Part shown: positions 12,880-26,609 of the stretch, in pieces
Layout: every line of letters starts with the position of its first letter
Position numbering within the stretch: position 1 is the stretch's first letter
Virus record (IMG/VR): IMGVR_UViG_3300028392_000206
Location: 1-31,897 of that record
Length of the DNA stretch: 31,897 bases
Direction: 5' to 3' (one strand)
Source of the DNA: a virus
The notes under the pieces: model-generated
Told to the model about the DNA's origin: nothing
Database searches by the model: none
The model's input: the letters and a program-made list of their open reading frames with translations, nothing else
Position numbers and translations under genes: made by a program

Positions 12880-15800
12880 ATGAGCCAACAAGGATTTTTT
12901 ACAGGTGATGTCAAGATAAGAAATGAAAATGGGGTATTGGTTGCTAACAATGGTATTGTTACAGCCACTAGTGGTATAACATCAGGTACAACAGGTACAA
13001 GTGGTTCTAGTGGAACATCAGGGGTTGCAGGTACATCAGCTAGATATGTAGATACTATTACGGCTACTTCTGGTCAAACAAATTTTAGTTCTACCTATGG
13101 GTATAATCCTGATTTAGTTGATGTATATGTAAATGGGGTTAAATTAAATAAGAATGATTTTTCAAGACCTACTAATACAAGTATAATTTTAAATACCGGG
13201 GTAATTGCTGGAGACATTGTAGAGATATATAATTATATATCTTATTATACTGCCACATCAGGAACTACTGGTACTTCTGGAACAACTGGAACATCTGGAA
13301 CATCTGGTATAAATGGGGCTTTTTATTTTTCTTTATCTACCTCATCTTTTACCCTAGGTAATGCAGGTAGTTTAATAATAAATACTAATTTATCCTATAG
13401 TCCATCTCAGTCAATAGTTATTTCTCATGACAATTCAAATTATCAGCAAAGTGAGGTTTCAAGTTATAACTCTACTACGGGGCTGTTAACATTTGGTGCA
13501 CCTAATTTAGTTATTGGTGGTGGAACCTATTCAAGTTGGTCTGTTAACATTGATGGAAAAGCTGGTACATCTGGTACAACAGGTACTAGCGGAACAAGTG
13601 GTCTTACTGGAACAAGTGGAACCACGGGTATAAATGGTACGTCTGGTACAAGTGGAATTAATGGAACAAATGGTACTAGTGGAACTAGTGGAAGCACAGG
13701 GACATCAGGTTCTTCAGGAACAACTGGAACTTCAGGTACTTCTGGTGCTAATGGTTCTTCGGGTATTTCAGGTTCATCTGGAACAACAGGTACAAGTGGT
13801 ACTTCTGGAACATCAGGTTCTAGCGGAATAGATGGGACAAGCGGTACAAGTGGCAGCTCTGGTTTGACTGGGAGTAATGGTACTTCAGGTTCAACAGGTA
13901 CATCAGGTTCTTCTGGTTCAAGTACGGGTGGTACATCAGGTACATCAGGTATAAATGGCGCAGGCGGTGCACAAGGGTATTATGGTTCTTTTTATGATAC
14001 CTCAACTCAAACAGCTGCAGTTGCTAATACGCCATATGCAATGAAATTAAATAGCTTAGATATTGCTTCAGGCGTATCTATTGTAAATAATGGGGGTAGT
14101 AATCCGACAAGAATTACAATTGCAAATAGTGGAATTTATAATATTCAATTTTCTGCACAATTTTATAGAACTAATAGTGGAACAGATTTAATTGATATTT
14201 GGTTAAGAAAAAATGGTTCAGATGTATCCCAAACAGATACGCAATTAGTAATGACAGGTGGTTCCGTTGCTTCTCAAATAGTCCCAGCTTGGAATTTTGT
14301 TGTAAATGCAACATCTGGAGATTATTATGAATTAATGTGGGCAACACCAGATACTCATATAGAAATATTAGCTCAAGTAGCACAAACAACTCCATTTGTA
14401 CATCCTGCTATACCATCAGTTATTTTAACTGTTGCTCAGGTATTATATTTACAGGAATCTACATCAGGTACTACAGGTACTTCTGGAACTAGTGGTGTAA
14501 ATGGTACTTCTGGTACTAGTGGTACAAGTGGAGGCACAGGTAGTAGTGGTGCATCAGGAAGTAGCGGTACATCAGGTACTTCTGGAACAACAGGAACAAG
14601 CGGTACTTCTGGAACAACTACAATGGCAATAGGTGGAACAATTACAAGTGCAACAGCAGGTTCAGTTTTATATGCAGGTGCTAGTGGTGTACTTGCTCAA
14701 AATAATGCAAACTTCTTTTGGGATAATACTAATACAAGATTGGGTATAGGAACTGCATCACCTACTGCGAGATTAAATGTTACAGGTTCTACAACTGCAT
14801 CAAGTGGATTTGGCTTATCAACTGTTATAAATCCTACTTTAGTTGCTGCTGCAAATGGTGATAAACTTATTGCATTAGATGTTACAGGAACTTTTACAAC
14901 AGGTAGTTTTACAGGTACATCTTCATTAATTGCAAGATTTAATGGTAATGTAATTATGGGTACTATTCCTTCCGTTATTTCATCTTTTACTTATGTACCT
15001 TTAACATTATCAAATAGTGCGTTTGCTGCTACTAAAGTTCAATTAGCTTTAGTAAATGGTGGAGGAGGTGGTGGTGCTGCAAGTGCGATTGACTTTTTTA
15101 CTTATACAGATGCAGGTAATGGATTGCCGGGAGTTCGTATTATAGCAGTAGATGATGGTAACTATTCTGGTGATTATCAAATACAAACAAAAGCACAAGG
15201 TTCAGTTGGTGCTGGTGCGTTATCAACTAAGTTTGTAATAATAGGAGGTTCTGGTAATATTGGGATAGGGACAACTACAGTAGGTTCAAAATTACAAGTA
15301 AATGGAAATGCTGCCATAGGATATAGTGCGAGTACTGCTGCTCCTTCAAATGGTTTAGTAGTTAGTGGAAATATTGGAATAGGTACAACCACAATAGGTA
15401 GTCAGTTTCAAGTAAACGGAAACGCAGCAATTGGTTATTCAGCGAGTACCGCTGCTCCAACCAATGGATTGGTTGTATCAGGTAATATGGCAATAGGTAC
15501 AACTACTATTACAAATGCTACAACAGATGTATTAACAATTAGTAAAAACCAAAATGATATTACAAAATTAATTATTAGTAATACTACAAGTGGTACAATA
15601 TCAAATGCAAGATTAAGTTTATTATCAAGTAGTGCTGCAGGTGCTTTTGAAGTAGGTAAATTTTCAGCAGCTTCAACTGGATACAAAATTATTACCGCAA
15701 ATAGTGGATTTTTATATAATCCAACTGCAGGAAATATTGCAATACTTAATGATGTTGCTGCAGGTAATATAATTTTTGCAGCAGGTGGTTCATCTACTGC

Positions 15801-16002
15801 TCAATTAACAATAGCTTCAACAGGTGCAATAACTGCTACTTCAACAATAACTTCAACTCAATACAATATATCAGCATTAAATACTGCTCCTGCAACTGCT
15901 ACATCAACAGGGACATTAGGAGAAATTAGATTTGCAGCAGGTGCTATATATGTATGTACTGCAACAAACACTTGGGTAAGAACATTATTAATAACATTCT
16001 AA
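12880..16002 (+). CDS. Collagen-like tail fibre 1, 1040 aa
   Basis: Modules in order: residues 1-55 hold an N-terminal strand and the first Gly-X-Y tract; ~60-125 a small globular domain (YVDTITATSGQTNFSS...); ~126-146 a Gly-X-Y tract; ~147-227 a beta module that recurs twice in fibre 2; ~228-365 a long Gly-Thr-Ser-type collagen-like tract; ~365-525 a C1q/TNF-like jelly-roll (YGSFYDTSTQTA ... YNIQFSAQFYR ... DIWLRKNGSDV ... PSVILTV); ~526-580 Gly-X-Y; then a long beta region with near-identical 38-residue repeats and a small C-terminal domain ending NTWVRTLLITF. Such a trimeric fibre should bind the host surface. There is no S74 chaperone at its end. A 113-aa accessory gene follows 16 nt later. 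Confidence 0.8.
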   Translation: MSQQGFFTGDVKIRNENGVLVANNGIVTATSGITSGTTGTSGSSGTSGVAGTSARYVDTITATSGQTNFSSTYGYNPDLVDVYVNGVKLNKNDFSRPTNTSIILNTGVIAGDIVEIYNYISYYTATSGTTGTSGTTGTSGTSGINGAFYFSLSTSSFTLGNAGSLIINTNLSYSPSQSIVISHDNSNYQQSEVSSYNSTTGLLTFGAPNLVIGGGTYSSWSVNIDGKAGTSGTTGTSGTSGLTGTSGTTGINGTSGTSGINGTNGTSGTSGSTGTSGSSGTTGTSGTSGANGSSGISGSSGTTGTSGTSGTSGSSGIDGTSGTSGSSGLTGSNGTSGSTGTSGSSGSSTGGTSGTSGINGAGGAQGYYGSFYDTSTQTAAVANTPYAMKLNSLDIASGVSIVNNGGSNPTRITIANSGIYNIQFSAQFYRTNSGTDLIDIWLRKNGSDVSQTDTQLVMTGGSVASQIVPAWNFVVNATSGDYYELMWATPDTHIEILAQVAQTTPFVHPAIPSVILTVAQVLYLQESTSGTTGTSGTSGVNGTSGTSGTSGGTGSSGASGSSGTSGTSGTTGTSGTSGTTTMAIGGTITSATAGSVLYAGASGVLAQNNANFFWDNTNTRLGIGTASPTARLNVTGSTTASSGFGLSTVINPTLVAAANGDKLIALDVTGTFTTGSFTGTSSLIARFNGNVIMGTIPSVISSFTYVPLTLSNSAFAATKVQLALVNGGGGGGAASAIDFFTYTDAGNGLPGVRIIAVDDGNYSGDYQIQTKAQGSVGAGALSTKFVIIGGSGNIGIGTTTVGSKLQVNGNAAIGYSASTAAPSNGLVVSGNIGIGTTTIGSQFQVNGNAAIGYSASTAAPTNGLVVSGNMAIGTTTITNATTDVLTISKNQNDITKLIISNTTSGTISNARLSLLSSSAAGAFEVGKFSAASTGYKIITANSGFLYNPTAGNIAILNDVAAGNIIFAAGGSSTAQLTIASTGAITATSTITSTQYNISALNTAPATATSTGTLGEIRFAAGAIYVCTATNTWVRTLLITF
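13561..13975 (+). repeat. Collagen-like (Gly-Thr-Ser)-type repeat tract in fibre 1
   Basis: About 138 residues of Gly-X-Y triplets, mostly GTS, GTT, GSS and GIN. At DNA level the codons are mixed (GGT/GGA, ACA/ACT/ACG, AGT/AGC/TCA/TCT), so protein periodicity is strict while DNA periodicity is loose. Shorter tracts of the same kind lie at 12967-13038 and 13255-13317. Confidence 0.9.
14457..14622 (+). repeat. Collagen-like repeat tract in fibre 1, distal
   Basis: About 55 residues of Gly-X-Y triplets (GTTGTSGTSGVNGTSG type) between the C1q-like domain and the distal beta region. Confidence 0.88.
15259..15486 (+). repeat. Tandem 114-nt (38-residue) repeat in fibre 1
   Basis: Two units, 15259-15372 and 15373-15486, plus the start of a third at 15487. 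The proteins agree at 34 of 38 positions by hand count (differences V/I, K/Q, L/F, S/T), but many codons differ synonymously: 9 of 16 in the stretch VNGNAAIGYSASTAAP. Confidence 0.9.
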
Positions 16003-16391: not shown

Positions 16392-19300
16392 ATGAGTAAA
16401 AATACAATATTAAGTGAAATACCTAATGTCACAGGACTTGTAAAAGGTTCAACAAGTGGGTTTTCTGCTGCCATAGCTGGCACAGATTATCAGCTACCAA
16501 TAACCCTAACAACAACAGGGATTACTGGACCTGCAACCTTCTCTGGTAATACATTAAATATTCCTCAATATGGTAGTGCTGGTACTTCAGGTTCTACTGG
16601 TACCTCAGGTACATCAGGAACAAGTGGCACTAATGGCTCATCAGGGACAAGTGGAACAAATGGTTCGTCTGGCACAAGTGGTACTAATGGCTCTTCAGGC
16701 ACAAGTGGTACTAATGGCTCTTCAGGAACAAGCGGTACTAATGGTTCTTCAGGAATAAGTGGCACATCAGGAACTACTGGAACATCTGGAACAAGTGGTA
16801 CAAATGGTGCCTCAGGCACAAATGGAACTAGTGGCACAACAGGAACAAGCGGAACGACTGGTACAAGTGGAACCTCTGGAACAAGTGGAACCAATGGTTC
16901 ATCTGGTACCTCTGGAACCTCAGGCTCCTCAGGAGTCTCTGTTTTCTATACAGGCACATCTACAACCTCTATATCAATACCAACCTCAGCAGGAATCACG
17001 GTAAATTTAACTACCCAAGCAAATCTTTCTTATACTACAGCACAGATTGTTAGAATTGTATATGATATAACTCATTATTTTGATGCTTCTATAATTTCTT
17101 ATAATTCATCTATAGGAAGTTTAAGTGTTACCTCTACTGCAAATGTAGGAACAGGAACCTATGCTTCTTGGACTATAAATCTTGCTGGGGCTTCTGGTGG
17201 TAATGGAACCTCAGGTACATCAGGAACCTCAGGAGTCAATGGAACTAATGGTACTTCAGGAACTAATGGTACTAGCGGAACATCAGGTTCTAGTGGTGCA
17301 ATGGGAAGTTCTGGAACAAGTGGCACAACAGGGACTTCAGGAACAACTGGTACATCTGGTACAACCGGTACAAGCGGAACCACAGGCACAAGCGGAACCA
17401 CAGGAACAAGCGGAACAAGTGGTGTTAATGGAACAAACGGAACATCAGGATTAAATGGAACGAGTGGAACAACTGGAACAAGCGGAACAACAGGTACCTC
17501 AGGTACTAGCGGAAATGCAGGTACCTCAGGTACTAGCGGAGCCAATGGCTCTTCAGGAACAACAGGCACTAGTGGTTCTACTGGAACAAGTGGAATTTCT
17601 GGTTCAAGTGGAACAAGTGGTACTAGAGGTACTTCTGGAACATCTGGAATTAATGGAACTAATGGAACATCAGGTACATCAGGTGTTAATGGTGGAAACG
17701 GAAGTAACGGAACCTCTGGTACAACAGGAACTAGTGGTACTAGTGGAACAACTGGGACTAGCGGTGTAAATGGTACCTCTGGCACATCTGGAACTACAGG
17801 TACGTCTGGAACAACTGGTACCTCAGGAACCACAGGCACAAGTGGAACAAGCGGAAGTTTAGGTCAAAGAGGTGGTGTGCCATATAATTGGTCAAGTTCT
17901 ATAACAAATGCAAATCCTGGTGCAGGCTTAGTAGCATATAATAGTGCTACAATAGCATCTGTAACTTCTTTATATATAAATACTGCTGATTTTTTAGGTA
18001 ATACTCAAACATCATGGTATACATCATGGAGTAATTCAACAAGTACAAATAAAGGATTTTTAACTTTATATAGCAGAGATACTGGTACAATAGTTAATAT
18101 ATTCAATGTTACTGCTATAACTAATAACACAACTTATTATACAATTACAGTAACATATGTATCTGGTACTCTACCAACCAATGGTGCATTATTAGCTACA
18201 GGATTTACTGCAACTGGAAATATTGGTACAAGCGGTACAACAGGTACTAGCGGGACCTCAGGAACAACAGGCATAAATGGTACAAGTGGAACTACCGGTA
18301 CATCTGGAGTCAATGGGACAAGTGGTACAACAGGAACATCAGGGGTCAATGGGACAAGTGGAACATCTGGAACTACAGGAACAAGTGGTACAACGGGTAC
18401 TTCTGGCACTACTGGTACAAGCGGTACTAATGGTTCTTCTGGAACAAGCGGTACTAGTGGAATAAATGGTAATAGATATGCAACAACTTCTACTACATCT
18501 TTTACATTAGGTAATAGTGGAACAATAACTGTAGGAACGGGATTGTCTTATACTCCTGCACAATCTATTATTATAGCATTTGATGCTTCTAACTATCAGC
18601 AATCTGTAGTTACATCTTATAATTCAGTAACAGGTTCTTTAGTATTTGGAACACCGTCATCAACAGTTGGTTCTGGAACATATACTAGTTGGAGTGTAAA
18701 TCTTGCAGGTGCAAGTGGTGGTAATGGAACAAGTGGTACAACAGGCACTTCAGGAACAAGTGGAATTAATGGTACTAGTGGTATTACTGGTACAAGCGGA
18801 ACTACTGGAACTTCAGGGACTACTGGTATAAATGGTACCAACGGAACATCAGGAACAACTGGTACTAGTGGAACCACTGGTACTAGTGGAACTAGTGGCA
18901 CAACAGGAACCTCTGGAACAACAGGGACTTCTGGTACAACAGGAACATCAGGAGTAAATGGAACATCTGGTATTAATGGAACATCAGGTATTAATGGAAC
19001 CTCAGGAACAACTGGAGCTAGTGGAACATCTGGCGTAAATGGGACATCTGGTGTAAATGGAACAAACGGAGTAAATGGAACATCTGGTATAAATGGAACA
19101 AGCGGAGTAAATGGAACAAACGGAGTAAATGGAACATCTGGAATAAATGGTACTTCTGGGGTATCTCCTTCTATAACAGGATTAGTACCATATACTGGTG
19201 CAACTACAGATGTTGATTTAGGATTAAATAGTATTAATTTATATAATATTACTTCTAATAATGTATTAATAGTAAAAAATACTGGTTCAGTAACAGGAAC

Positions 19301-20906
19301 AAATGGGTTTTCTAGTTTTTCAGGAAATAATACTAATGATGGATTTATTTTTGCACCAAATAATTCAACCTATCAAAAATTTATAGTACCAATAGGTACA
19401 AATTATACATATACCTTTCCAAGTGGAACAGGTACTTTAGCTTTAACTTCTCAACTAACAGCAGGAACAGTTACTTCGGTAGCGGCTTTAACTTTAGGTA
19501 CAACAGGAACAGATGTTTCTTCAACAGTAGCAACAGGGACTACAACCCCTGTAATCACTTTGAACATCCCTGATGCAAGTGCTGCGGCTAGAGGATTAAT
19601 TACAACAGGAACTCAAACAATAGCAGGTGCTAAGACATTTAGTTCATCTGTAACTTCTTCTAATGCTGGTGGTACTTATTTTAGTGCTATTAATAGTGCT
19701 GGTGGTTTTGCTAAATTAGAGATTTCAGCAAATGCTACATCTACTGCAACATTAAGTTTTACAAATTCATTATCAATTACAGGTGGACCAACTAGCTTTT
19801 CTAGTACTATTACAGCAGTACAAGGAAATTTCTTTCAAACTGCAACAAGTGGTTTTGCACTTACTATGAAAAATATAAATGCAACGCAACAATGGGGTCA
19901 AGTAGTTGATGTTAATGCAGTAGATGATAAATATTTTGGGTTATATGACATAACTAATTCTGCTTATAGATTTGTTGTTACAAATGGCGGGAATTGTTTA
20001 ATAGGAAATACATCAGATAATGGAAGTAAATTACAAGTAACAGGAACTTCTACATTTAGTTCAAATGCAATATTTAGTTCAACTTTACAATCTAATGGTA
20101 CTTTAACTGTAGGGAATCAAACTGTTGCAGGAAACTACTGTTTACAAATTACTCCATCTTCAAGTACTTATGCGACTATACAAGGAATACTAGCAGGTAC
20201 AGGTTCTTCTAACATAGTTTTACAACCAAGTGCAGCTAATATATTAATAGGTACTACATCAGATAATGGAAGTAAATTACAAGTTGCAGGAGGAGGAACA
20301 TTTACTTCATCGGTTCAAGCAACCACTTTAGCTTTAGGTTCAGTAGCTCCATCTACAAATGGAATATATTTAAACAATTCTACTGCAAACGCTGCAAACT
20401 ATGGTTATATAAGAACTAATGCTTCATCTATAAATACAACGCAATTAATATTAGGAACCACTTATGGATATAGCACTCCTGTTGATGCTCTAACTATATT
20501 TAATGGAACAGCTACTTTTGCTTCAACAGTTACAATATCTTCTTCTACTGCTTCAACTTCTACAACAACGGGTGCTTTAGTAGTAACAGGTGGTATTGGG
20601 GCAGGTGGTTCTATTTACGCTGCATCATTCTTTGAAAGTTCCGATAAAAGAGTTAAAACTTTAATTGAAGATAACTTCCAAGCTAAAGGCATAGAAACTA
20701 TTACTCCTAAACTTTATACTAAAAATGATAAAGTAGAATTAGGTTATTATGCTCAAGATGTTCAAGGTGTATTAGATAGTGCAGTAAGTGAAAGCGAAGA
20801 TGGGATGTTAAGTTTATCTTATCGTGAAGTTCATACTGCTAAGATTTACGCTTTAGAAAAGAAAATAGAACAATTAGAAACACTTATTAAATCCTTAATT
20901 AAATGA
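16392..20906 (+). CDS. Collagen-like tail fibre 2 with S74 self-cleaving chaperone, 1504 aa
   Basis: The N-terminal ~60 residues (ITGPATFSGNTLNIPQY) are followed by four Gly-X-Y tracts separated by globular modules: ~182-265 and ~694-773 (the beta module also found in fibre 1) and ~492-609 (starting QRGGVPYNWSSS, a domain seen in many phage fibres). From ~927 there is a typical distal region (LVPYTGATTDVDLG, ARGLITTGTQTIAGAKTFSS). The C-terminal ~90 residues are a Peptidase_S74 intramolecular chaperone: SSDKRVK at 1416-1422 gives the Ser-Lys pair (S1417, K1422), followed by ELGYYAQDVQ, LSLSYREVHTAK and a terminal coiled coil (YALEKKIEQLETLIK). In S74 proteins the domain trimerises the fibre and then cleaves itself off before that Ser. 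The stop overlaps the next start (ATGA). Confidence 0.9.
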   Translation: MSKNTILSEIPNVTGLVKGSTSGFSAAIAGTDYQLPITLTTTGITGPATFSGNTLNIPQYGSAGTSGSTGTSGTSGTSGTNGSSGTSGTNGSSGTSGTNGSSGTSGTNGSSGTSGTNGSSGISGTSGTTGTSGTSGTNGASGTNGTSGTTGTSGTTGTSGTSGTSGTNGSSGTSGTSGSSGVSVFYTGTSTTSISIPTSAGITVNLTTQANLSYTTAQIVRIVYDITHYFDASIISYNSSIGSLSVTSTANVGTGTYASWTINLAGASGGNGTSGTSGTSGVNGTNGTSGTNGTSGTSGSSGAMGSSGTSGTTGTSGTTGTSGTTGTSGTTGTSGTTGTSGTSGVNGTNGTSGLNGTSGTTGTSGTTGTSGTSGNAGTSGTSGANGSSGTTGTSGSTGTSGISGSSGTSGTRGTSGTSGINGTNGTSGTSGVNGGNGSNGTSGTTGTSGTSGTTGTSGVNGTSGTSGTTGTSGTTGTSGTTGTSGTSGSLGQRGGVPYNWSSSITNANPGAGLVAYNSATIASVTSLYINTADFLGNTQTSWYTSWSNSTSTNKGFLTLYSRDTGTIVNIFNVTAITNNTTYYTITVTYVSGTLPTNGALLATGFTATGNIGTSGTTGTSGTSGTTGINGTSGTTGTSGVNGTSGTTGTSGVNGTSGTSGTTGTSGTTGTSGTTGTSGTNGSSGTSGTSGINGNRYATTSTTSFTLGNSGTITVGTGLSYTPAQSIIIAFDASNYQQSVVTSYNSVTGSLVFGTPSSTVGSGTYTSWSVNLAGASGGNGTSGTTGTSGTSGINGTSGITGTSGTTGTSGTTGINGTNGTSGTTGTSGTTGTSGTSGTTGTSGTTGTSGTTGTSGVNGTSGINGTSGINGTSGTTGASGTSGVNGTSGVNGTNGVNGTSGINGTSGVNGTNGVNGTSGINGTSGVSPSITGLVPYTGATTDVDLGLNSINLYNITSNNVLIVKNTGSVTGTNGFSSFSGNNTNDGFIFAPNNSTYQKFIVPIGTNYTYTFPSGTGTLALTSQLTAGTVTSVAALTLGTTGTDVSSTVATGTTTPVITLNIPDASAAARGLITTGTQTIAGAKTFSSSVTSSNAGGTYFSAINSAGGFAKLEISANATSTATLSFTNSLSITGGPTSFSSTITAVQGNFFQTATSGFALTMKNINATQQWGQVVDVNAVDDKYFGLYDITNSAYRFVVTNGGNCLIGNTSDNGSKLQVTGTSTFSSNAIFSSTLQSNGTLTVGNQTVAGNYCLQITPSSSTYATIQGILAGTGSSNIVLQPSAANILIGTTSDNGSKLQVAGGGTFTSSVQATTLALGSVAPSTNGIYLNNSTANAANYGYIRTNASSINTTQLILGTTYGYSTPVDALTIFNGTATFASTVTISSSTASTSTTTGALVVTGGIGAGGSIYAASFFESSDKRVKTLIEDNFQAKGIETITPKLYTKNDKVELGYYAQDVQGVLDSAVSESEDGMLSLSYREVHTAKIYALEKKIEQLETLIKSLIK
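16577..16935 (+). repeat. Collagen-like repeat tract 1 in fibre 2
   Basis: About 119 residues of Gly-X-Y. The first part repeats a 12-residue block GTSGTNGSSGTS several times with partly different codons. The antisense strand reads as a Val-Pro-rich frame, which is an artefact of the repeat. Confidence 0.9.
17188..17873 (+). repeat. Collagen-like repeat tract 2 in fibre 2 (longest)
   Basis: About 228 residues of Gly-X-Y, dominated by GTTGTSG with inserted GVNGTNG, GSSG and GNAG. Short near-exact DNA repeats (such as GGAACCACAGGCACAAGCGG near 17385) occur and could allow length changes by slippage. Confidence 0.9.
18217..18471 (+). repeat. Collagen-like repeat tract 3 in fibre 2
   Basis: About 85 residues of Gly-X-Y between two globular modules. 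It contains a near-duplicate block around GTTGTSGVNGTSG (18288-18360) with almost identical DNA. Confidence 0.9.
18712..19170 (+). repeat. Collagen-like repeat tract 4 in fibre 2
   Basis: About 153 residues of Gly-X-Y. The last ~200 nt are more uniform in DNA: blocks coding GVNGTNG and GINGTSG recur in near-identical form from 18950 to 19155, the most DNA-repetitive part of the fibre. Confidence 0.9.
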
Positions 20907-22075
20907 GTTGGCCAGTAGCAGGTAATCAATGTGTATCTTGTAATAATTTACAAGCAGCGGTAACCGCAGGGGTATTTACTGCAAAAACAACTATTCCTGC
21001 AACTAATAAAGAGATTACTAAAACGGAAGCAGATACTTACGTTAATATTGATACTACCTATCCACCTTATGCTGCTAAAGCAACAAATCAATTAGTAGTT
21101 TCAAATGATTTAGTTTCTTCTACTACATCATCTCAAAAGATGATTTATTCAACACAATTTGGAGGAACAAATACTGGATTAATTAGGTTTTCAGCTAATG
21201 GTGGTACTTCATTTAGCACAATTAAAACAACGGCTAATATATCATCAGCAAGAATGTCGCCAAGTGGTAATCATATGATAGCTACTACCGACCAATCTTC
21301 TAATAATATTATATTTAGCACAGATGGTGGTTCAACTTGGAGTACAAATAATGCTACTGCTGGAGGAACATCTACTATAGCTGGTAGAAATTATGCTGAT
21401 ATTTCATATAGTGGGCAATATATGTTTGTATATACTAATAGTACTTTTTATCGTTCAACTAGCTATGGTGCTACATTTGCTTCTACAACAAGTATTTCAG
21501 GTGGAACTTTTACAGCCATGAAATGTTCAGGTAGTGGTCAATATGTGTTTTTATCAACTAGCGGTGGTACTTTGTTCCGTTCAAATGATTATGGTGCAAC
21601 TTTTTCATATTCAATGACATCCCCTATTTCAAGTGTATTTAGTATTGCAGTTTCTTATTTAGGTCAATATGTTAGCTTAGCAAGTACATCTAGTACTAAT
21701 GTTTATGTAAGTTCAAATGGCAATACTTCTAGTGTTACATTTACTGCAAAAAATGTTTTATCTGGCAATAATGGGTCTGTAATAGTAATGTCGCAAAATG
21801 GTCAATATTTAATTGCATTAAATTCATCATCTTATACTTCTTTTGCATATTCAACAGATTATGGAGTGAATTGGTCAACTTCAACAGTAGGTTCAGGAAT
21901 TACATATACTGGGTATATTGATATAAATTCATCTGGAAATTATATGGCAATGCAAGCATATACTAATATAGCTCCATCTGATTTGTACACTTATACAAGC
22001 ACAAACTTTACTACTTGGGTACAAAGAGAATTAACACCTAGTACTGTACTTATAACACAATTATCAATGCAATAA
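20903..22075 (+). CDS. Asp-box (BNR-like) beta-propeller tail protein, 390 aa
   Basis: Start overlaps the fibre stop (ATGA at 20903-20906). After an N-terminal segment with a C-x-x-C (NQCVSCNN, residues 8-15), the protein repeats sialidase-type Asp-box motifs S-x-D-x-G-x-x-W/F: SANGGTSFS, STDGGSTWS, STSYGATFA, SNDYGATFS and STDYGVNWS. Each sits in a ~45-residue blade-like unit with 'S.SGQYMFV'-type strands. Asp-box propellers occur in sialidases and in glycan-binding proteins; I do not see the Arg triad of a sialidase, so glycan binding is more likely than hydrolysis. It may form the tip or receptor-binding partner of fibre 2, or replace a cleaved tip domain. The N-terminal part resembles that of fibre-associated proteins. 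Confidence 0.7.
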   Translation: MSWPVAGNQCVSCNNLQAAVTAGVFTAKTTIPATNKEITKTEADTYVNIDTTYPPYAAKATNQLVVSNDLVSSTTSSQKMIYSTQFGGTNTGLIRFSANGGTSFSTIKTTANISSARMSPSGNHMIATTDQSSNNIIFSTDGGSTWSTNNATAGGTSTIAGRNYADISYSGQYMFVYTNSTFYRSTSYGATFASTTSISGGTFTAMKCSGSGQYVFLSTSGGTLFRSNDYGATFSYSMTSPISSVFSIAVSYLGQYVSLASTSSTNVYVSSNGNTSSVTFTAKNVLSGNNGSVIVMSQNGQYLIALNSSSYTSFAYSTDYGVNWSTSTVGSGITYTGYIDINSSGNYMAMQAYTNIAPSDLYTYTSTNFTTWVQRELTPSTVLITQLSMQ

Positions 22076-22255: not shown

Positions 22256-22432
22256 ATGAATCAAGAAAGCAAAAAATTGCCAATTCCTACTCTAACATCA
22301 GAGCAAGTTCAGGTATTAATCAACTATGTTAATGACCAACTACCAACTAAATATGGTACGGAAATCCTAGGTTTTATTGAAAAAATAGCTATTGAATTAG
22401 ATAAGGCTTTATCTGTTCAAGAACCATCTTAG
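22256..22432 (+). CDS. Small hypothetical protein, 58 aa
   Basis: MNQESKKLPIPTLTSEQVQV is followed by a helical region (LINYVNDQLPTKYG, then EILGFIEKIAIELDKAL). It has its own -7 element and an A/T-rich start context like other genes here. Its last 44 nt overlap the 3' end of the opposite-strand glycosyltransferase gene. No motif is recognised. It is likely a real small gene because of the promoter element and helical composition, but the function is unknown. Confidence 0.5.
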   Translation: MNQESKKLPIPTLTSEQVQVLINYVNDQLPTKYGTEILGFIEKIAIELDKALSVQEPS

Positions 22433-24416
22433 GAGTAATTGAGATTTGACATTCAAATTGATTTGGGTAGTCTTTCCAAACAGGGCACCAATTCCAATCA
22501 CCTTTGTCAAATTTAAAGTTTTTATTATTCCAGCATCCATGACAAACTGATTTGTTTGTGACTCTTATTGTGTCAAAGGTAAACTCATGCCCATCTTCAG
22601 AAAAGTTACAAATCATTACTACCTTCTTTTTTAAAGCCCAAGCCAACCAACTAACGCCACTACCTAGTCCTATAAAAAATTCACTATGATGTATTAGGGA
22701 CATGGTCTTTTTTATGTCGTGGTTTACTATTTGTTCAGCCCCATCAAATTGGTTTTCTTCTAGGGAAACATTTATAACTCTATATCCTAGTTCATTAAGT
22801 TTGTATATTACCACTTGCCAACCTTCTTTGGTCCAAAATTTACATCCAGATGTTGAATTGGTGGCAATAGTAACATACTTTTCTTTTATTGTTCTTTTAC
22901 CCCCATCAAAGTATAATAAAGGTCTAATTTCCTTAAAATCCAACCCTAATATATTTGTAGCCGTCTTTTGTAATGGTATTGTGTTGCATAATTCAGGTTC
23001 TCTATCTGTATCATAGTGCCAACCTATATTATATTGTGCATGAAGATTATTTACTATCACGCCTCTGCCTACAATTTCTAACTCAGGATAATCAAATAAA
23101 TCAGTTCTATTTGTGGCTACTATTACCTTACAATTGTGTTTATTTTGAAACTCTAAACAATATGGCATCCAAGCAAGATTGTCCCCTAGCGAATCGCTAT
23201 CTATAACTATTAACACTCTTTTATCGGATAAGTTAAGGATATTATCGTATATTATCGTACCTCTACAGGTAACTATGGTTCTCCATTTAGTAAACCATTG
23301 TCTATTCAGCTTAACCCAAGAGTTTGATTTTATTGTGTTTTCATAATATATACTACCATTTTCGTCAAAAAACCGAACTAAAAACTCTTCCTCTACAACA
23401 GAATTAATTTCTAAAAAAGGCTGATTAATAAAATACTGGGTAATAGAAACCTCTTGTTGCACTATAGGGTTACTTAATATTTCGTTGTATGCTTTTACAT
23501 GATTCTCCCTAAAGTTAGCTGAGGTATTATCTGTAGGAACCTCATAGTTAGAATGTATTGTATTTAGGTCTGTATCTATGGGTTGGATATACTTGGTAAA
23601 CATATCCTTATACTGAGGAAGATTATGGGCTATAATAGGAAGCCCGTAGCCAATTGCTTCTCTTAAAACTAAAGGATTGCACTCCCAAGTTGAGTTGAAC
23701 ATAAATATATCAGCCACCTCCATAAACTTATCTACATCACCTCTTTCACCCCATACCTTAACATTAGGTGGCAAATCTTTCATAAGTGGTTTCCAATAAT
23801 CAGCAAAATTACCAGCTTGATTTCCAACAAAATGGAATGTCATATTAGGGTATTTCCTAGCTATCTCAATACCCTCTCCTTGATTCTTCCCCTTGGTCCA
23901 TAGTCCTACATTTAAAACATTATTCCCATTCCTTACTCCATTTACTTCTTGTTTGTCTATAGGATATGTTATTACCTTGTAATTACTAACGCCAAACGTA
24001 TCTACATGGTAGGGGGTACAAAATAAATAAAAGTCTGGTTTAAATATTTTATCTGATGGTAAACAATCAACCCCGTGAAGTGTTTCTATTATCCTGTAGG
24101 CTCTGTTATTATTATAAAGCTTCTTAATCATTTCCCTATCTAGCCTTTCAGACATATCATCTATATGAATAATATTTGGCTTAACCTTGTCTATTATATC
24201 TATCAGCTCCATCTTGTTTTCGCCAAGTGAGTAAAAGTTTTCTAATAGCAAACTTTTTATAGCATCTCTTTGCACCACAAAATCAGCCCCATAGTAACTA
24301 TGTTCTACCACAAAAATTTCATTATCTGCATCTTGTATTAATACCTCTATTCTTTTTAAAAGAAATTGTGGCATCCCCCCAGTTGATAAGTGTGGTGCTA
24401 AGAATAATATTCTCAT
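22389..24416 (-). CDS. GT4 glycosyltransferase fused to TibC/BAHT-like O-heptosyltransferase
   Basis: 675 residues. Residues 1-~320 are a GT-B, GT4-type glycosyltransferase: N-terminal MRILFLAPHLSTGGMPQFLL, the 'NVGLWTKGKNQGEGIEIARKYP' centre and the donor-site segment MFNSTWECNPLVLREAIGYGLPII (E245, E253). Residues ~340-675 match the bacterial autotransporter heptosyltransferase family (TibC/AAH): a beta-rich part with W-x-K-W (~375-380), SLGDNLAWMPY (409-419), and an iron-finger with four Cys in C-x2-C-x15-C-x11-C at C625, C628, C644 and C656 (VCHGCWNN, WNWCP, QFEC). That family transfers ADP-heptose-derived sugar to Ser/Thr of surface beta-helix proteins and uses a bound iron. It overlaps the upstream gene by ATGA. 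The donor sugar here is unknown. Confidence 0.75.
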   Translation of the reverse strand: MRILFLAPHLSTGGMPQFLLKRIEVLIQDADNEIFVVEHSYYGADFVVQRDAIKSLLLENFYSLGENKMELIDIIDKVKPNIIHIDDMSERLDREMIKKLYNNNRAYRIIETLHGVDCLPSDKIFKPDFYLFCTPYHVDTFGVSNYKVITYPIDKQEVNGVRNGNNVLNVGLWTKGKNQGEGIEIARKYPNMTFHFVGNQAGNFADYWKPLMKDLPPNVKVWGERGDVDKFMEVADIFMFNSTWECNPLVLREAIGYGLPIIAHNLPQYKDMFTKYIQPIDTDLNTIHSNYEVPTDNTSANFRENHVKAYNEILSNPIVQQEVSITQYFINQPFLEINSVVEEEFLVRFFDENGSIYYENTIKSNSWVKLNRQWFTKWRTIVTCRGTIIYDNILNLSDKRVLIVIDSDSLGDNLAWMPYCLEFQNKHNCKVIVATNRTDLFDYPELEIVGRGVIVNNLHAQYNIGWHYDTDREPELCNTIPLQKTATNILGLDFKEIRPLLYFDGGKRTIKEKYVTIATNSTSGCKFWTKEGWQVVIYKLNELGYRVINVSLEENQFDGAEQIVNHDIKKTMSLIHHSEFFIGLGSGVSWLAWALKKKVVMICNFSEDGHEFTFDTIRVTNKSVCHGCWNNKNFKFDKGDWNWCPVWKDYPNQFECQISITPKMVLEQIKPYLIQ

Positions 24417-25996
24417 ATTTTATTATTTATATATATTATAACCTCGGTATAGTAATCAATAAAATGTTCATTAAACAAATCCCATTTAATGTCAACCCCA
24501 TCAATTGCTAGAACCTCGTAATTATTAAATTGTGGAAGATAAACATCCCTAAAATTTCTGAACTTATTTTTTAGTTCTTTGGTACCTAAATGCCACTCAC
24601 CGGCTATTTTTCTTACATTGTTTTTTATAAATTGTAAATTGTCTTGGGTAAATATGTCGTATTCCCCACCCTCGCAATCTGTTTTTATAAAGTCAATTTT
24701 ATCCAACCCATATAAGTCACATAGCCTTTTAAATGTTATGCCCTCCATTTTGGTATTATCATTTCCAAATAAATATTCAGTATCAGTTAGGCTATTAGCT
24801 GAGGATACCCCTTTAAATATTTGTGTAACAGGATAACCTATAGTATTTGATACTAGTGTTTTAAACTCTATATCACTTGGCTCAATACAAAATACGTGCT
24901 TAGGCCTTTTGGGTAAAATAGAATAGGTAAATGGACCAACACTACTACCAATATCAAGTACAATATCGTTTTCCTCTACCTCAAAAAATTGTTCATACAA
25001 TCTATTTTCAAATATTTCAAAGGTAATAGCTTGTTTATGAAATAATCCCTCTTCGCTATTATTCATCCAACCCCAATTAAAATCCTTAAGTTGCTCTGCT
25101 AATAATATTTTTTTAATCATTTGCTCCATTTTATCAATTCTTTTTTCGCCATGGAATAGCAGTAGGTTTTCTCTACTAGATGGTATTCTAAACCAAGTTG
25201 ATATATGTAAATCTTCTCCTGTGAATTTTAATTTATCATATACCTCAATTACCTTATCTAGTCCACCATTAACATATACATAAGGCAACCCATCTAGGTA
25301 ATTATATTTCCAAAGAAGAACATTGATTAATGTTTCCTCGTGGTATGGAGCATATAATGCGTGGTTGCCCATAACCTTAGGATGATGACACATTTCTTCC
25401 CATTCACTAATAAATGGTAAGGATTTTTGTCCCGCTATATATATATTGGTGGTTCTGTATCTTTGTCTAACATATTGATTCACCCCAAATAATTTACAAG
25501 CCGAATGTTCTAGAGTTGTACTTAAATCATCCCTACTAATTGCCCCACCTCTTCCATCTATTTGCAACCAATCGTATACTCCTTCTGTTATATATGGGTA
25601 TGGAGTATTAATATCATACATCTCAAATACCCTATCTATGTAAGGGGTAACCACCACATCACTATCAATGTATACAATAGTTTCTGCGTAATTTAAAAGA
25701 GCATCTTTGGTAACACTAGCTCTTTGTATTAATAGTTTGTATATGTTAATATGCTCTCTTTTGATATAGAAGTTGTCCTCATTGTTATACATACTTTTAT
25801 CAGCCTCCTCCACATCGCACTCCCATTTAATTGTGTTGGTGTTTTCTACATCTACCTGACTATTTGAGTTAATTATATAAACTATAATTGGTACCTTGCT
25901 AAATTGTCTAATAGATTTAGCACACATTGAAACTATATCAAGGTACTTTTCATTGGCACAAAGTACATATGCTTTTTCTAGTTTTTGTAATTTCAT
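24413..25996 (-). CDS. GT-A glycosyltransferase fused to FkbM methyltransferase
   Basis: 527 residues. The N-terminal ~290 residues form a GT-A-like domain with a DxD metal/sugar-nucleotide motif, VYIDSDVVV (D111, D113), preceded by 'KLLIQRASV' and followed by a W-rich acceptor region. Residues ~325-527 are a FkbM-type SAM methyltransferase: VLDIGSSVGPFTYSI (346-360, motif I), CIEPS (370-374), and DFIKTDCEGGEYDIF (435-449), the FkbM signature. FkbM enzymes O-methylate sugars or related hydroxyls. The fusion would add a sugar and then cap it by methylation. The gene lies 4 nt after the upstream methyltransferase stop and overlaps the heptosyltransferase start, forming one operon. Confidence 0.8.
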   Translation of the reverse strand: MKLQKLEKAYVLCANEKYLDIVSMCAKSIRQFSKVPIIVYIINSNSQVDVENTNTIKWECDVEEADKSMYNNEDNFYIKREHINIYKLLIQRASVTKDALLNYAETIVYIDSDVVVTPYIDRVFEMYDINTPYPYITEGVYDWLQIDGRGGAISRDDLSTTLEHSACKLFGVNQYVRQRYRTTNIYIAGQKSLPFISEWEEMCHHPKVMGNHALYAPYHEETLINVLLWKYNYLDGLPYVYVNGGLDKVIEVYDKLKFTGEDLHISTWFRIPSSRENLLLFHGEKRIDKMEQMIKKILLAEQLKDFNWGWMNNSEEGLFHKQAITFEIFENRLYEQFFEVEENDIVLDIGSSVGPFTYSILPKRPKHVFCIEPSDIEFKTLVSNTIGYPVTQIFKGVSSANSLTDTEYLFGNDNTKMEGITFKRLCDLYGLDKIDFIKTDCEGGEYDIFTQDNLQFIKNNVRKIAGEWHLGTKELKNKFRNFRDVYLPQFNNYEVLAIDGVDIKWDLFNEHFIDYYTEVIIYINNKI

Positions 25997-26000
25997 TATA

Positions 26001-26609
26001 TTATTTTTTTACTACCCAAGTGCCAAACCATTCATTTGTTATATCTACTTCGTATTTATGATTATTAAAAAACTCATCTACAGCCGGGTTTACGCCAAAT
26101 ACCCCATGGTAATGATTAGCTGAGTATATGTGTTTATCCTTGCCATTAGTGGCAAAGTTGGGGTCAGAATACCAATCTAGGTCTATATAATCATGACCTA
26201 ATACATAACCACCTTTTTTAACCTTAGGATACCATGTTTCAATATCTTTAATCACAAAATCATATGCGTGGTTTGCATCTATGTATACAAAGTCTAAAGA
26301 ATAATCAAGAAATAACTCAGCTGCTTGTATAGAATCAGCCCTAACCATAACAGACCTATTTTCATATCCTTTAATAGACTCCATAGCATCAGCATAAGCT
26401 GTTGTATGTATATTGTGATTACTTGAGTCTAAATACTCATCTCCCAAACCCCTCCAAACGTCTACCATATAAAGGTTGCCAGACCAAACTTGCATTATTT
26501 CCTTCGCGAACTCGCCTTTAAAAGAGCCAATCTCTACCCCAATGCCATTAGGGAATTCGGTTCCTAATTGTTTTATAAGCTCTACTCTGCCAATGTTTAA
26601 TTTAGACAT
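26001..26609 (-). CDS. SAM-dependent methyltransferase (Methyltransf_24-like)
   Basis: 202 residues, first gene of the decorating operon. Motif I is VEIGSFKGEFA (25-35). Further on there are MVDVWRG (48-54), DFVYIDANHAYDFVIKDIE (106-124) with D111 and H114, and GGYVLGHDY (133-141). This is the pattern of the small class I methyltransferases related to TylF/MacrocinOMT and Methyltransf_24, which often accompany surface-glycan genes and methylate sugars. A promoter element lies 19 nt upstream of the start. Substrate is unknown; sugar hydroxyl is likely by context. Confidence 0.75.
   Translation of the reverse strand: MSKLNIGRVELIKQLGTEFPNGIGVEIGSFKGEFAKEIMQVWSGNLYMVDVWRGLGDEYLDSSNHNIHTTAYADAMESIKGYENRSVMVRADSIQAAELFLDYSLDFVYIDANHAYDFVIKDIETWYPKVKKGGYVLGHDYIDLDWYSDPNFATNGKDKHIYSANHYHGVFGVNPAVDEFFNNHKYEVDITNEWFGTWVVKK

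Follow-up and report, generated by a model that had tools for sequence, protein, structure and literature searches.

The window, by which we mean the whole 31.9-kb stretch of a viral IMG/VR record analyzed here, carries a phage terminase gene (phrog_6681) and, on its minus strand, a glycosylation island toward which two collagen-like fiber genes are convergent. The gene under study lies in this island at 22389..24416, with its ATG start at 24416, and encodes a 675-aa fusion of a GT4 glycosyltransferase with a TibC/Aah-like glycosyltransferase; an earlier note on this DNA, made from the sequence alone, had given correct coordinates but left the minus strand unstated. The GT4 domain (residues 1–330; 23427..24416, minus strand) was delimited by Pfam PF00534/PF13692, alignment, and structure matches, and the TibC-like domain (residues 322–675; 22392..23453, minus strand) by TIGR04414 and its fold match, with a beta-barrel, a thumbless GT-B core, and a Cys4 finger. 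The motif SLGDNLAWMPY spans residues 409–419 and the Cys4 (iron-finger) stretch runs from C625 to C656 (22449..22544, minus strand). Pfam GT4 and TIGR04414 matches in a viral record with a phage terminase bear out the proposal that a phage carries a GT4 domain fused to a TibC/Aah-type domain.

The fusion gene is coupled in an operon to the gene upstream (24413..25996, minus strand), whose stop overlaps the fusion start in the sequence ATGA and which encodes a 527-aa protein with a GT8 glycosyltransferase module (PF01501, weak) and an FkbM methyltransferase module (PF05050). The first gene of the island (26001..26609, minus strand) encodes a Methyltransf_24 methyltransferase (PF13578, E 1e-17). 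Residues 1–299 of the GT8-FkbM protein score 412 bits against a GT8 module found as an in-frame fusion in relatives, and a GT8-type module stands N-terminal and in frame with GT4 and then the TibC-like domain in 63 of 99 unique close relatives. Other relatives carry extra modules (methyltransferase, FkbM, pyruvyltransferase, or GT9) and reach 1495 aa. Judged by its modules, this layout of GT8, GT4, TibC-like, and methyltransferase domains is that of a glycan assembly line, not a lone transferase. The earlier idea of a two-step protein glycosylation is thus reasonable in kind but too short, as a cassette with at least three glycosyltransferase domains plus methyltransferases implies more than two steps.

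Several related loci illustrate the variety of these cassettes. The 1495-aa protein (L075, 100–4587) combines GT9, Methyltransf_24, GT4, and TibC-like modules with a 237-residue C-terminal extension, in an order unlike that of other relatives. In an isolated cyanophage, Microcystis phage Mel-JY01 (L153, 3421–7101), a 1226-aa protein whose sole annotation is FkbM methyltransferase ends in a TibC-like domain. A near relative of the window phage, G510 (L193 13900–16937; L397), has a terminase 73% identical to that of the window, GT8, GT4, and TibC-like frames broken by stops (two TGA and one TAA in the TibC-like match), and an open collagen-like gene, so it may hold a decaying or mis-assembled copy of the cassette. 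Scans for promoters and terminators found sites no more numerous than in shuffled sequence.

Two plus-strand genes of the window encode candidate acceptors. The larger fiber (1504 aa; 16392..20906; PF01391, E 5e-76) contains 198 Gly-X-Y triplets (GTS 91, GTT 32, GTN 16, GSS 12) in repeats nearly free of proline, and the second is a collagen-like tail fiber of 1040 aa (12880..16002; PHROG tail-fiber matches) with 78 triplets (GTS 35). Near the C-terminus of the larger fiber, residues 1417–1465 give a sub-cutoff match to an S74 intramolecular chaperone, which suggests a trimerizing and possibly self-cleaving fiber end. Between this fiber and the glycosylation island lies a plus-strand gene (20903..22075) that overlaps the fiber gene by 4 bases and encodes a 390-aa protein with BNR-like repeats (sub-cutoff matches) and 32% Ser+Thr, possibly a fiber tip or adhesin. 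A protein encoded in L193 (17485–18744) has a start resembling that of the 390-aa protein (MSWAGLGSNQIVSAANL).

Domain identity and conservation

The GT4 assignment rests on a Pfam PF00534 match to residues 163–276 (40.1 bits against a cutoff of 26.4, E 3e-10) and on the E-x7-E catalytic pair E245/E253, invariant in all 28 aligned sequences. An AlphaFold2 model of the fusion protein, built from a 28-member alignment (mean pLDDT 88.9), matched structures over residues 1–317 with Z 24.9 to 6eji and 24.7 to HepE (4xsp). Like the retaining GT4 enzymes HepE (4XSP), PimA (2GEJ), and BshA (3MBO), the domain has a complete GT-B fold over residues 1–317 with E-x7-E intact; unlike them, it is fused to a TibC-like domain, and its identity to the nearest structures is about 16%. 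T4 alpha-glucosyltransferase also appears among the GT4-fold matches at Z about 21, which could point to glycosyltransferases that add sugars to modified bases in the phage's DNA. We consider such DNA hypermodification very improbable: the resemblance is a generic GT-B one that ranks a long way behind TibC, the proteins scanned with Pfam and PHROG included no recognized base-modification genes, and the cassette adjoins tail-fiber genes.

The C-terminal half can be placed with confidence in the TibC/Aah enzyme class. TIGR04414 (NCBIfam), the model for autotransporter strand-loop-strand O-heptosyltransferases, matched residues 342–670 with 243.5 bits against a curated cutoff of 200 (E 3e-72), and phmmer matched TibC (4RAP) at E 7e-47. 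TibC is the only close relative with a solved structure. The structural comparison that the earlier note had called for gave Z 40.2 and rmsd 1.7 over 348 residues between TibC (4RAP_D, residues 21..391) and model residues 322..675, far above all other listed structure matches, which fall mainly on residues 1–317. The N-terminal beta-barrel is present as well, with model residues 323–393 mostly in strands and aligning from TibC residue 21.

The residues that serve catalysis and metal binding in TibC are retained. The four cysteines read from the sequence in the earlier note were confirmed (Cys625, 628, 644, and 656), and their spacing, C-x2-C-x15-C-x11-C, is the same as that of the TibC iron ligands Cys339, 342, 358, and 370 (PMC4358343). 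D412, T522, K526, and W590 are the equivalents of TibC D110, T226, K230, and W305, of which D110 is the catalytic base, T226 and K230 bind phosphate, and W305 contacts the sugar (PMC4358343). All eight positions are invariant, both in 81 of 81 aligned sequences and in 100 of 100 unique sequences of an enlarged set. A viral scan with the fusion protein returned 113 relatives, of which 80 with near-full-length matches at about 48–79% identity were kept, and one with the C-terminal domain alone returned at least 567; the homologue search proposed earlier thus found relatives in viral sequences, with the four cysteines kept in all close ones. A plain GT9 enzyme without the metal site, one of two outcomes named beforehand as telling against the iron-finger assignment, is ruled out by the TIGR04414 match above cutoff and the invariant Cys4; the other, cysteines that vary among homologues, is contradicted by the 81 of 81 count.

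A thumbless phage branch

Two features that the TibC paper terms highly conserved across the BAHT family, Arg286 and the thumb, are lost in the phage branch, with that statement as our single source for their retention in bacterial members (PMC4358343). Arg286 of TibC contacts the adenine of ADP-heptose, and the R286A change abolished or largely diminished heptosylation; the thumb tip, F265/V266, builds the active TibC dodecamer, and F265D/V266D mutants are dimers inactive on TibA (PMC4358343). The Arg286 position is Thr571 in the window protein and Thr in 97, Val in 2, and Lys in 1 of 100 unique sequences. The F265/V266 positions are gapped in 100 of 100, so the beta-hairpin thumb is absent. 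The position of Pro300, the TibC stereoselectivity residue, is Ser or Gly in the phage branch. With thumb and Arg286 lost, we call the domain TibC-like, not a standard BAHT; its sugar need not be heptose and its assembly need not be a ring. It would be unsafe to credit the phage branch with TibC activity, and loss of the thumb predicts that these enzymes would not form a dodecameric ring.

Stand-alone TibC-like proteins of about 390–400 aa occur in other phage records (L385, L390–L392, L396, L155), and most of them retain Arg286 and have a longer loop where the thumb would be; these may be true BAHT-type heptosyltransferases. Because some distant stand-alone relatives keep both features, the losses go with the fused branch.

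The missing thumb also bears on which domain would act first. The same fiber could be modified in the reverse order, with GT4 starting the glycan on Ser/Thr and the TibC-like domain adding a later sugar, an order favored by the loss of the thumb that TibC's protein-modifying ring needs and by the GT4-type protein O-GlcNAc transferases GtfA (4pqg) and SdgB (7vfl) among the GT4 structure matches (Z about 22.5). However, a Z of about 22.5 is common to GT4 enzymes generally, the GtfA and SdgB chains of about 500 residues exceed the 300 aligned, and several phage records have a TibC-like domain without this GT4, which suggests that it can act without GT4. We regard this reverse order as improbable and favor initiation by the TibC-like domain.

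Association with Ser/Thr-rich collagen-like fibers

We found that the fusion gene is associated with collagen-like genes beyond the window. Among 67 non-redundant loci of the fusion gene, 26 of the 40 with enough room had a collagen-like ORF no more than 6 kb downstream, always convergent, and 4 of 42 had one upstream; like all association counts given here, these include related phages, so shared ancestry inflates the counts and the p-values overstate independence. No collagen-like ORF was found within 10 kb in 19 of 52 loci with room. At the level of whole records, PF01391 was present in 43 of 48 fusion-bearing records (the other five had no collagen domain anywhere) vs 3 of 17 random viral records selected through a random AT-rich 16-mer (Fisher 1e-7). 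The share of Ser/Thr at X and Y positions ranged from 0.33 to 0.89 in the fusion set, typically about 0.75, and from 0.05 to 0.49 in four control collagen stretches.

The first loci, in which this association came to notice, also served to test it; a reciprocal test is cleaner. Among 45 viral records picked only for (GTS)4 DNA in a collagen-like ORF, 15 carried a TibC-like gene, most of these genes being divergent, some stand-alone, and many not fused to this GT4. A TibC-like gene was present in 2 of 31 control records, one of which is G510 with its disrupted copy and collagen-like gene; without G510 the comparison is 15 of 45 vs 1 of 30 (Fisher p 0.0015), and with only the 17 random records as controls p is 0.048. 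In the terminase lineage to which the window belongs, G510 has both genes and three records of 56–62 kb have neither. The convergent Ser/Thr-rich collagen-like fiber is thus a plausible best candidate for the substrate.

The remaining 30 of the 45 (GTS)4 records, in which no TibC-like gene was found, may be fragments or may use other enzymes. The same 30 records would also fit a cassette that glycosylates the host surface (LPS, capsule, S-layer, or a host adhesin) and blocks phage adsorption to the infected cell, as phage seroconversion enzymes do, and surface polysaccharide clusters typically contain GT4, GT8, and GT9-type domains and FkbM or pyruvyl transferases. Against this stand the TibC-type profile, the Cys4 site, and the beta-barrel, which point to a protein acceptor, and the position of the cassette beside fiber genes with which it co-occurs; in addition, no flippase-like gene was recognized in the minus-strand island. 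We consider a host-surface target unlikely and favor the phage's own fiber.

Proposed function and comparison with known systems

We propose, at a probability of roughly 0.55, that the product of the fusion gene is a soluble, multi-domain protein O-glycosyltransferase, which modifies the phage's own collagen-like tail fiber during virion production. TibC uses ADP-heptose to attach heptose to Ser of TibA, an autotransporter of repetitive sequence (PMC4358343); the TibC-like domain would, by analogy, prime the fiber repeats, transferring the first sugar from a nucleotide-sugar donor to Ser (or Thr) of (Gly-Thr-Ser)n. The next sugar would then come from the fused GT4 domain and a further one from the GT8 domain encoded upstream; FkbM and Methyltransf_24 would O-methylate or cap the glycan, with assembly taking place in the cytosol. 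The glycan would probably serve to stabilize a proline-poor collagen fiber, and to shield the fiber or tune adsorption. Two points make a stabilizing role attractive: sugars on the collagen-like helix of bacterial BclA have been proposed to strengthen its hydration network (PMC8968730), and the phage repeats hold almost no proline. More tentatively, many phages could rely on a thumbless TibC branch that forms no ring, fused into multi-enzyme proteins, to hyper-O-glycosylate proline-poor (Gly-Thr-Ser)n fibers in the cytosol, possibly with a donor other than ADP-heptose, the sugar replacing proline/hydroxyproline in holding the triple helix.

The donor for the TibC-like step would be heptose or a related sugar made by the host. 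Phage-made heptose was considered and set aside, as no SIS_2 match (the phosphoheptose isomerase type) was found in 38 records with the fusion or a TibC-like gene; a heptose donor would thus need to come from the host. The window terminase is nearest to those of Flavobacterium and Cellulophaga phages (about 29% identity), and our guess is a Bacteroidota host. RfaE domain II was above cutoff in 58 of 99 sampled genomes of the phylum of L082, a Bacteroidetes MAG, making host supply possible. One weak-pattern scan of bacterial contigs for the fusion turned up no more than a fragment, where a contig of L082 matched, and TIGR04414 was above cutoff in 0 of 395 sampled genomes of that phylum, so a bacterial origin of the fusion is not supported. 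With sampling confined to this phylum, the fusion looks phage-borne, and there is no obvious sign that the phages acquired it from hosts of this kind.

TibC/Aah enzymes are known for modifying bacterial adhesins, and published work links the family to a dodecameric ring. A branch that lacks the thumb, occurs in hundreds of phage contigs, and never varies in its active-site and metal residues would suggest that not every member requires the ring and that much of the family's diversity resides in phages. If the fiber is the target, this would be a concrete case of a phage glycosylating its own fiber, with consequences for adsorption, fiber stability, and collagen-like biomaterials, and the cassette and the Gly-Thr-Ser fiber form a named candidate enzyme–substrate pair. 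A literature search, mostly of papers from outside subscription journals, found nothing on phage TibC-like enzymes or the fusion, on the lost thumb and Arg286, on the pairing with Gly-Thr-Ser fibers, or on collagen-like fibers of Flavobacterium phages. The fusion is already in public databases under generic names: A0A7S9XE01 of Virus NIOZ-UU157 (985 aa) is 53% identical over a 714-column alignment, and A0A6J5SVC1 of an uncultured Caudovirales phage is named 'Glycosyltransferase Aah/TibC', both being database entries only.

Compared with the TibC/Aah BAHT enzymes (TIGR04414; PDB 4RAP, 4RB4; PMC4358343), the phage enzyme shares the beta-barrel, GT-B core, and Cys4 iron-finger with identical spacing, as well as the catalytic base and the phosphate- and sugar-binding residues, at about 32% identity and Z 40. 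Unlike them, it is thumbless, has Thr for Arg286 and Ser or Gly for Pro300, and is fused behind GT4, often with GT8 and a methyltransferase too; no partner autotransporter was recognized among the neighboring genes scanned with Pfam. Bacillus BclA, C. difficile BclA1, and mimivirus collagen are likewise collagen-like repeats of a microbe or virus that carry glycans, which in the window are a prediction. In bacterial repeats of the collagen-like type, X is commonly Pro and Y Thr (PMC8968730), whereas the phage repeats are nearly Pro-free Gly-Thr-Ser, and the candidate enzyme in the phage, unlike in BclA-type systems, is TibC-like. In the glycosyltransferase-encoding mycobacteriophages Che8 and Rita, as reported in PMC11256854, the phage glycosyltransferases have likewise been tied to glycosylation of a protein of the virion itself, a tie that is predicted for the window; their target is the major capsid protein, and that article mentions neither a TibC-like domain nor a collagen-like fiber.
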